DNA of 64,000 nt from Pedobacter indicus (GTDB lineage Bacteria; Bacteroidota; Bacteroidia; Sphingobacteriales; Sphingobacteriaceae): contig NZ_QRGB01000001.1 of NCBI RefSeq assembly GCF_003449035.1, forward strand, positions 868,001-932,000. Reading direction: 5' to 3'. Positions 27,282 through 30,865 of the stretch are shown here, piece after piece (the first letter of the stretch is position 1; every line of letters begins with the position of its first letter). The position numbers and the translations under genes are program-made. A model generated the notes under the pieces. It searched no databases. It was given only the letters and a program-made list of their open reading frames with translations, and was not told where the DNA came from.

Positions 27282-27319
27282 TTAAATTCAGGGCTCTTAA
27301 TAGAGAACCCTGAATTTAA
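27282..27319. terminator. Long hairpin at the convergent end of the TlpA-like and serB-like genes
   Basis: The 12-nt arms 27282-27293 and 27308-27319 are perfectly complementary, with an inner CTCT/AGAG stem. The stop codon of the minus-strand gene (27297-27299) reaches into the loop. There is no clear T-run on either strand. Confidence 0.55.
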
Positions 27320-28589
27320 TCGTATGCTCGACTGACTTCAACTCTTTCAAAACAATTTTATCGTACTTCCTGCTGATGTCCGTGATAACATACCCCAATC
27401 CTTTTTTTGTCATTAAGAACTGTGCGACAATATTGATGTCATGATCTCTTAAAATACCGTTAATCCGTGCCATAATGCCCGGAACGTTTTCATGGATATG
27501 GATCAGTCTGTGCGAATCGTTTTTCTGTGGTACGTTCAGATTAGGGAAGTTACGACTCATCATCGTATCACCATTGTTAATAAAATTGGCCATTCGCCTG
27601 GGAATGAAGTCCGCGTTTTTCCATTTATTCTTTTTGTCGTCAAACAATACAATACCATGTTGTCGGCAAAAATCCCGATCAATATGGCCTTTGCTGTTTC
27701 CCAGGTACCCAATGGTTTTTAAGCGCGCAGCAGATTGGATCATATCGTCGCTGAGATTTAAACCATCCTCAAGCAACAGCATTCCCGCTTCTTTTAAATC
27801 TGCGTCATCCAGGTCTTTTGCGGTGACTGTATTAAATCCGTCTTTTTTGAAAAAGCTAAGTGCATGTTTGGGAATCGAACCCACAAGGACACACAGTATC
27901 CTGTTCTTCGGATAGGAGATAGCACGCGGAAGCTGATTAATGTACAGGAATTCATCAAAATTGGGTGCTATATGGTCTGCTTTTGCAGAGACCGATTCGC
28001 GGCGGATGTTTTCAGTAAACGCATAAAACTTCTCGATCATCCCAGATTCCTTCAATTGGAAATCGGAGTACCCATCTCCTATTCCGTGAATCTCACCCTT
28101 TAACTTAAGCTGTTTAAGGAGCTTTACTTTTCCACCCTCTTCCGATAGAGGGTTCTCAGCATCGAAACCAATAATATTACCATTGACATCAAAAAGAAAT
28201 GTATTAGCAAAAACATTTTCTTCTGTTATATGATAATTCCGAACTACCGGATAAATGAATTCTTTAAAACCGCCGGATACAATCAGGACATCATCGGCGT
28301 TTTCTTTGAAAAAGGCTTTGTTTCTGGAAAAGGAAGCAGAAACCTTTTTCTTTAGTCTTTTAATGAGCAGTTCCAAGTGATCCTTATTTGCATGCAACAG
28401 CTGAAGGCGTCTGTTCAAGCTATCGCGAAAGGAAAGCTTACCTTCCATAGCCAAATTGGTCAACGATTCAATTTCATCAAGATAGCGTTGTTTGTTTGGG
28501 TTGTTTTTAAGGGATATCTTGGCTAATTCATCCAATGCCTCTACTTGGGTAAAAGTACTGTCAAAATCAATGATGTAACTTGTTTTCAT
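27297..28589 (-). CDS. serB: Phosphoserine phosphatase fused to SerA-like substrate and ACT domains
   Basis: The 430-residue protein has three parts. Residues 1-215 are a HAD phosphatase: DFDST (nucleophile D8, D10), VSGG (S105) and GDGYSD (171-176). Residues 229-340 resemble the N-terminal substrate domain of phosphoglycerate dehydrogenase (AARLKTIGYLGNSKGHIDRD) but without the NAD-binding Rossmann domain. Residues 349-430 closely resemble the SerA ACT domain, from NFPN through HIHENVPGI to the final RVLY. H366, N368 and N386 align with the serine-binding H344, N346 and N364 of E. coli SerA. It should make L-serine from phosphoserine and may be serine-inhibited. It follows the SDR gene by 24 nt. 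Confidence 0.87.
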   Translation of the reverse strand: MKTSYIIDFDSTFTQVEALDELAKISLKNNPNKQRYLDEIESLTNLAMEGKLSFRDSLNRRLQLLHANKDHLELLIKRLKKKVSASFSRNKAFFKENADDVLIVSGGFKEFIYPVVRNYHITEENVFANTFLFDVNGNIIGFDAENPLSEEGGKVKLLKQLKLKGEIHGIGDGYSDFQLKESGMIEKFYAFTENIRRESVSAKADHIAPNFDEFLYINQLPRAISYPKNRILCVLVGSIPKHALSFFKKDGFNTVTAKDLDDADLKEAGMLLLEDGLNLSDDMIQSAARLKTIGYLGNSKGHIDRDFCRQHGIVLFDDKKNKWKNADFIPRRMANFINNGDTMMSRNFPNLNVPQKNDSHRLIHIHENVPGIMARINGILRDHDINIVAQFLMTKKGLGYVITDISRKYDKIVLKELKSVEHTIKFRVLY

Positions 28590-29686: not shown

Positions 29687-30865
29687 ATGTCTCTAATCGA
29701 TTTTTTCAGTCCGGTCAATAGCGAGGAAATATTAGCCGAAACAGATTTGTTCAGATCACAGTATGGCAAGATACTAGATATTTACGATCAAGAGTTTCCG
29801 AAGCTAGATGATGCGGACATCGCAATTATTGGGGTGATGGATGATCGCAGGGCTTTCAATAATAAAGGCTGCGCCGAAGCCCCGGATGCCTTTCGGAAAC
29901 AGTTCTACAAATTGCACCAAGGAGGGTATCGAACCAAGATCGTTGATTTGGGTAATATTAAGCGCGGGCATTCGGTAACGGATACCTATGTTGCTCTACA
30001 AACCGTTACTACAGAATTGATAAAAAAGAATATTGTACCGGTAATTATTGGAGGAGGGCAGGATTTGACCTACGCCCAATACCTTGCATACGAGAAATTA
30101 GAGCAACGGGTTGACCTCGTCGTTGTCGATTCATCCTTCGATCTTCAGGAAGATGTTGAAGATATGGCAGATACAACATCCCGGTCTTATCTGAATAAGG
30201 TGATGCTTCATCAGCCGAACTATCTTTTTAATTTCAGCAATATCGGATATCAAACCTACTTTGTAAATCAAGAGAGCCTGGATGTATTTGAAAAGCTTTA
30301 TTTTGATGTTTATCGCCTCGGAACATTTTCCGGAAAAATTGAACAGGCCGAACCGGTTCTCCGCAATGCCGATATGATTAGTTTTGACATGGGGGCTATC
30401 CGGTCTTCAGACGCTTCTGCAAACGGGAATGCAACCCCAAATGGATTCTATGGCGAAGAGGCCTGTCAAATCTGCCGCTACGCAGGCATGAGTGATAAGC
30501 TCACATCCATTGGATTTTATGAGTTTAATCCCGACCTTGACAAAAACGGACAAACCGCAATTTTGCTCTCGCAAATGATTTGGTACTTCATCGAAGGGTA
30601 CTATCATCGGAAGAAGGATTTTCCGCTTCAGCCCAAATCCTCTTATATCATTTATCACACCGCTTTAAAGGCAGATGATCACGAGGTGGTATTTGTGAAA
30701 AGTAAAAAGTCAGATCGCTGGTGGATGCAGGTACCTTATCCGAATACCAAGTCGGTTAACGAGCGCTACCACTTAGTGCCTTGCAGCTATCAGGATTATC
30801 AAACAGCAATTGACGGTGAGATGCCCGATTTATGGTGGCGAACCTATCAGAAATTAACCTTTTAA
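29687..30865 (+). CDS. Arginase/formimidoylglutamase-fold protein with altered metal site
   Basis: The 392-residue protein follows the ureohydrolase fold: DIAIIGVMDDRRAFNNKGCA, GHSVTDTY, then IGGGQDLTYA, VVDSSFDL and ISFDMGAIRSSD. In arginases these carry six Mn ligands (GGDH, DAHxD, SxDxD). Here Q125 replaces the first His, S150 the second His and G236 the last Asp, while D148, D152 and D234 remain. The binuclear site is therefore probably incomplete, and hydrolysis of a guanidino compound is doubtful. Similar degenerate homologues are, as I recall, widespread in Bacteroidota and annotated as formimidoylglutamase. No other histidine-degradation gene is present here. Confidence 0.8.
   Translation: MSLIDFFSPVNSEEILAETDLFRSQYGKILDIYDQEFPKLDDADIAIIGVMDDRRAFNNKGCAEAPDAFRKQFYKLHQGGYRTKIVDLGNIKRGHSVTDTYVALQTVTTELIKKNIVPVIIGGGQDLTYAQYLAYEKLEQRVDLVVVDSSFDLQEDVEDMADTTSRSYLNKVMLHQPNYLFNFSNIGYQTYFVNQESLDVFEKLYFDVYRLGTFSGKIEQAEPVLRNADMISFDMGAIRSSDASANGNATPNGFYGEEACQICRYAGMSDKLTSIGFYEFNPDLDKNGQTAILLSQMIWYFIEGYYHRKKDFPLQPKSSYIIYHTALKADDHEVVFVKSKKSDRWWMQVPYPNTKSVNERYHLVPCSYQDYQTAIDGEMPDLWWRTYQKLTF

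Follow-up and report, generated by a model that had tools for sequence, protein, structure and literature searches.

Introduction

In arginases, the chemistry is based on a hydroxide held between two metals, and the metal ligands are assigned to two sites, which are named A and B. According to structure alignments, the formiminoglutamase of Trypanosoma cruzi has Asn where the first ligand His stands, and its N114H variant has been solved. Larger losses were described in other members of the fold. The work on metformin hydrolase reports that MetCb, which MetCa requires, is metal-free and has lost five of the six ligands (PMC11271267). An arginase-like protein of Trypanosoma brucei is reported to be inactive and to lack key catalytic residues (PMC10820115). 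In a flavobacterium species description, a lone formiminoglutamase was listed without the remaining histidine pathway (PMC11278836).

The protein considered here is encoded in the window, that is, the whole stretch of 64,000 nucleotides that was analysed. Half of its metal ligands are lost, it carries a tail of its own and its gene is frequently found in a neighbourhood of the type IX secretion system (T9SS) across the family. Hence, a job different from histidine breakdown is most likely for this arginase-fold protein.

Results

Fold and Domain Layout

The gene is a full-length open frame of 392 residues with an ATG start, and its features are listed in Table 1. Residues 43–301 matched the Pfam Arginase family (PF00491) with 86.2 bits against a cut-off of 22. 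The AlphaFold2 model had a mean pLDDT of 90.9 and a pTM of 0.92. Its best structural match in VIA-align was the T. cruzi formiminoglutamase 4myn (Z 37.5, rmsd 2.0, 280 residues, model residues 21–309). Foldseek ranks 1 to 10 were formiminoglutamases, metformin hydrolases and agmatine hydrolases, with metformin hydrolase chains at ranks 2 and 4. The arginase fold, which the first-pass annotation had proposed from the letters, was thus borne out by the family match, the model and the structural alignment.

TABLE 1. Coordinates of the gene and its features, counted from the first letter of the window.
Feature	Position	Strand	Basis
Arginase-fold pseudoenzyme, 392 aa, usual label formimidoylglutamase	29687..30865	+	Pfam Arginase; NCBIfam hutG below cut-off
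Arginase-like domain, residues 41–301	29807..30589	+	Pfam match 43–301; VIA-align to 4myn
Q125, in place of the first metal-ligand His	30059..30061	+	Alignments; Q 128/152, H 12/152, N 5/152
D148-x-S150-x-D152, DxHxD with His replaced	30128..30142	+	Alignments; position 150 variable
Q189, family-invariant	30251..30253	+	152/152
D234-x-G236, DxD with second Asp replaced	30386..30394	+	D234 145/152; position 236 mostly G (60) or S (56), N in 15
E279, column of a Glu conserved in canonical relatives	30521..30523	+	20/20 controls; family E 119/152
C-terminal module, residues 313–392, near-invariant W345 and C366	30623..30862	+	Absent from canonical relatives; no recognised Pfam or Foldseek match

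Residues 313–392 lay outside nearly all structural matches and form a C-terminal module, in the alignment of which F, WW, C and Y positions were invariant. No Pfam family passed its cut-off on the module; SH3b_P2 appeared in 5/34, with a best E of 0.002. A profile search of the PDB with the module gave a best E of 0.07. The model of the module by itself (pLDDT 76) had no Foldseek match at E ≤ 0.001, and its VIA Z values did not exceed 4.2. An already known fold is possible for the module. A module profile found no stand-alone copy among 25 genomes, and all of its matches were in frames of 288–412 aa.

Replacement of the Metal Ligands

The residues named in the first-pass annotation (Q125, D148, S150, D152, D234 and G236) were all found at those numbers. 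Moreover, its placing of Q125, S150 and G236 at arginase ligand positions agreed with the phmmer alignments to solved relatives and with a MAFFT alignment to which 20 canonical members of the arginase family, taken from related genomes, had been added as controls. These columns read H/D/H/D/D/D in 19 of the 20 controls and H/D/H/D/C/D in the remaining one. The latter is a canonical HutG-like relative (L199, G036:C74) with Cys at the D234 position and five of the six ligands.

The orthologue alignment was reduced from 171 loci to 152 distinct sequences, the 19 duplicate-sequence loci being removed before counting. The window's own taxonomic family contributed 98 of the 152, and the other 54 came from 23 further families (one family-f1 locus was unlabelled), so the residue counts are weighted to that family. 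The complete set of six ligands was present in none of the 152; the window protein reads Q, D-x-S-x-D and D-x-G. As ligand replacement was seen in all 152 orthologues, neither chance nor the decay of a single gene accounts for it.

The first-pass annotation had asked whether Q, S and G are fixed among homologues. Q125 was mostly kept, with Q in 128, H in 12 and N in 5 of the 152 sequences. S150 and G236 were not fixed: position 150 held H in 44, K in 34, R in 26, Q in 19, A in 7 and S in only 2, and position 236 held G in 60, S in 56, N in 15, T in 6 and D in 3. Single Asp residues were conserved to a greater extent (D148 in 145, D152 in 143, D234 in 145 and the neighbouring D126 in 144). The column of E279 was Glu in every canonical control and in 119 orthologues, with N or G in 30.

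A one-metal enzyme had been among the roles suggested for the protein from its letters, and the alignment is in part compatible with it. D148, D152 and D234 with Q125 would hold one hard metal in site A, which would activate water, and E279 would hold the substrate. This reading, judged from residue patterns, is tentative and on the whole doubtful. It is consistent with the retention of all three Asp in 142/152, position 125 in those 142 being always Q, H or N, and with the frequent D126 and E279. However, the three Asp were not all present in 10/152 (families f2, f11, f19 and f21 and one f20 sequence), and the members of f2, f11, f19 and f21 with a broken set mostly retained Q189, R226, W345 and C366. 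Moreover, the residue at position 125 is no strong ligand, and E279 gave way to N or G in the 30 sequences mentioned above.

Residues away from the metal site showed the strongest conservation: Q189 and W345 were present in 152/152, R226 and C366 in 151/152, R70 in 150/152 and W346 in 149/152. The divergent members that lost Asp residues still carried the 80-residue C-terminal module. Short orthologues of about 280 aa were observed in f21 (L156, L158 and L166), in which the N-terminal arginase half was largely gone and the C-terminal module was retained.

The Formimidoylglutamase Label

The best NCBIfam match of the window protein was hutG (TIGR01227, an equivalog model) with 90.1 bits, which is below the cut-off of 229.15. 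A true HutG with all six ligands is encoded elsewhere in the same genome (row L189) and scored 288.6 bits against 229. It belongs to a contiguous hut cluster with hutU (884 bits, cut-off 375) and hutI (350 bits, cut-off 298), where hutG scored 289. The order hutU–hutI–hutG lies at about 87.5–91.4 kb of G000:C1, whereas the window gene lies at 897.7 kb and hence outside the hut context. The doubt raised earlier over the annotation as formimidoylglutamase was therefore justified by the low score and by the genuine HutG of the same genome, and the label is, as judged from sequence comparison, wrong for the window protein.

A true formimidoylglutamase, or another ureohydrolase with unusual ligands, can hardly be credited. 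The arginase fold and the identity of the best NCBIfam match speak for such an enzyme, but the score is far under the HutG cut-off, the real HutG sits in the hut cluster and the six-ligand set occurs in none of the orthologues. The lone formiminoglutamase of PMC11278836 would fit the same mislabelling if that protein is assumed to belong to the same family, and it would then also count against a ureohydrolase.

Distribution and Constraint

Each of the 41 genomes in the relatives set, which includes the window genome, had an orthologue. A profile built from 37 sequences matched 282/296 genomes at E ≤ 0.001 in the sampled group, which we take, from the named relatives and from general taxonomy, to be the class Bacteroidia. 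The number 282 is an upper figure because some of the matches are weak and are perhaps canonical paralogues (e.g., G501, 1.9e-4). Among the matches listed in the search of the phylum, those from outside the class stopped by query residue 326, i.e., without the C-terminal module. The family was monophyletic in the maximum-likelihood tree with a UFBoot value of 63, which is weak support for a separate clade; the FastTree clade support was 0.39, from an alignment with one misframed control row.

The window genome encodes three canonical arginase-family relatives besides the pseudoenzyme, and in 11/41 relatives the pseudoenzyme is the sole arginase-family protein. These observations bear on the idea that the protein has no catalysis of its own and is paired with an active arginase-family enzyme, in the way of MetCb and MetCa. 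The similar ligand loss in MetCb and the three canonical relatives would suit such a partnership. It is nevertheless very improbable, since no other arginase-family protein exists in the 11 relatives and no canonical member recurs among the neighbour clusters. As a general role, the pairing was rejected because of the relatives without a cognate. The protein thus works without an active cognate in those genomes, and its partner is not generally another arginase.

The pseudoenzymes of two species of the window's genus (G000 and G001) shared 78.7% identity. The values for four neighbour proteins in the same comparison were 65.5, 75.8, 54.1 and 81.9%, so that the pseudoenzyme stood above three of the four. 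The pair gave a pN of 0.13 and a pS of 0.82 with saturated synonymous sites, and no dN/dS ratio is given because of that saturation. A relic of a lost T9SS that is now decaying in the genus would agree with the absence of SprA from both genomes. However, this is extremely unlikely, because the frame is open and full length, the copies of both species are intact, and identity and pN relative to pS are those of a constrained gene. Retention for a different role, as the first-pass annotation had put it, is supported by the presence in all relatives, by the profile matches across the class and by a pN far below pS.

Gene Neighbourhood and Type IX Secretion

The order topA – pseudoenzyme gene – porP – gldK – gldL – gldM – gldN recurred in many families. 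Neighbour clusters were obtained from 44 neighbourhoods (36 fetched, 7 named and the window), with neighbour names confirmed on representatives, and they contained gldK 18 times, topA 17, gldM 16 and porP, gldN and gldL 15 times each. Moreover, at least 45 of 75 genomes, covering 20 families, had gldM on the strand of the pseudoenzyme gene and 2178–5134 bases downstream of it. The 75 genomes were those of the 296 that were common to listings of 150 and 137, and 45 is a lower bound because several of the 30 non-adjacent genomes list only a gldM paralogue.

Other contexts were also present. No T9SS genes were found around the window gene among the neighbours examined (24–36 kb of the window), and an SDR gene lies upstream and divergent in the window's family. 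In family f18 (L152, L163, L164 and L170), a gene for a PBP4-like D-Ala-D-Ala carboxypeptidase follows immediately downstream, and the frames overlap in L152. A murQ gene is near one f15 locus. The short f21 orthologues L156, L158 and L166 adjoin a murF-type gene and gldK, a context found at 3/5 f21 loci. A gene at 27297–28589 on the minus strand of the window encodes 430 aa with SerB-type HAD phosphatase, phosphoglycerate-dehydrogenase-like and ACT segments, and it is a conserved neighbour of the pseudoenzyme gene in the window's family.

The T9SS markers SprA and gldM were each present in 287/296 genomes. Nine of the 287 SprA-positive genomes were without the pseudoenzyme gene (G225, G282, G351, G370, G399, G420, G437, G480 and G516). 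Four of the nine SprA-negative genomes had it (G000, G017, G315 and G459), and G265, G273, G287, G377 and G472 had neither. SprA was absent and the gene was kept in the window genome (G000), G001, G016 and G017, whereas G001, G315 and G459 had the gene with neither SprA nor gldM. Homologues of gldL–gldM (plus strand) and of gldN and gldK (minus strand) were observed in the window genome at L182:6919-11738 (G000:C1:2835918-2840737), so that the motor and ring of a T9SS-like system are there and the translocon SprA is absent. Similarly, GldM and GldK were over the cut-off in G016 and G017 with SprA absent.

A cytosolic protein dedicated to the T9SS, as one of its components or as its regulator, and acting for example on the GldL–GldM motor, would account for the recurring gene order and for gldM downstream in so many genomes. 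It is considered unlikely because the gene is kept in G001, G459 and G315 without SprA and GldM, because nine SprA-positive genomes are without it and because some families have other neighbours, such as the PBP4-like gene and murQ. A strict T9SS function was discarded on account of genomes with the gene and without SprA or GldM, and of SprA-positive genomes without the gene. The imperfect co-occurrence, together with constrained copies in a SprA-less genus, indicates that the link is historical or partial.

Discussion

The moderately favoured reading is a conserved, Bacteroidia-specific arginase pseudoenzyme that forms oligomers in the cytosol and serves there as a binding or scaffold protein; it would be linked to the T9SS operon and have a T9SS-independent role as well. 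With the ligands at positions 150 and 236 lost, metal site B would be dismantled, and in site A a Gln takes the place of the first His. As site B would be gone and site A altered, two-metal hydrolysis as in arginases and HutG is not expected. One metal or a cationic ligand may be bound in the old pocket, where three Asp are kept and a Glu is mostly present; the pocket may sense a ligand or gain stability from it. The C-terminal module around W345, W346 and C366 would then be the contact surface for a partner. As the gene heads the porP–gldKLMN operon in many lineages, the partner possibly belonged to that envelope machinery in the past, or still does in many species. A T9SS-independent role is also needed, since the gene is kept in lineages without the T9SS. 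The C-terminal module, the location at the T9SS operon and the variability of positions 150 and 236 had not been anticipated in the first-pass annotation.

The retention of the three Asp in 142/152 speaks against this scaffold role: a pure scaffold would not require so much conservation, and the protein could, judged by these columns, still be catalytic or bind metal. The association with the T9SS, which is loose in both directions, and the lack of T9SS genes among the examined neighbours of the window gene also count against the favoured reading. That the protein senses a ligand in the cytosol as a partner of the T9SS or gliding motor (GldL–GldM), and was reused later after loss of the T9SS translocon, seems rather improbable.

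The metabolic label of this gene, which belongs to the core of a large class of bacteria, appears to be wrong, and genome papers may report lone formiminoglutamases as a result. If the operon position reflects function, the protein is a candidate cytosolic factor for secretion or gliding. Furthermore, the family members range from those with a nearly complete metal site to those in which it is fully lost, other residues staying invariant, and this series may be a record of an enzyme fold becoming a binding protein. No paper tying an arginase-fold pseudoenzyme to the T9SS was found in the open-access literature searched, and, on the family as delimited by its sequences, an arginase pseudoenzyme that spans the class, carries a tail of its own and is linked to the T9SS operon appears to have no prior description there.

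Among known systems, HutG (TIGR01227; 3m1r, 1xfk and 4mxr) has the arginase fold in common with the window protein, which differs by its score below the cut-off, three replaced ligands, the added C-terminal module and its place outside the hut cluster. The arginase-like protein of T. brucei, reported as inactive, is a precedent for a pseudoenzyme, although it is eukaryotic, unlike the window protein. We presume that the 4rhi series is this protein without a manganese cluster, and we know of no comparable C-terminal module or T9SS linkage in it. MetCb (8x3g, 8ryi and 8snf) is likewise an arginase-family pseudoenzyme with ligand loss; it has lost five ligands and has an active partner in MetCa, whereas the window protein has lost three and its family lacks a cognate in 11 of the 41 genomes. 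Finally, co-occurrence with the T9SS is not strict, and the pseudoenzyme gene heads the T9SS core operon porP–gldKLMN in many families.
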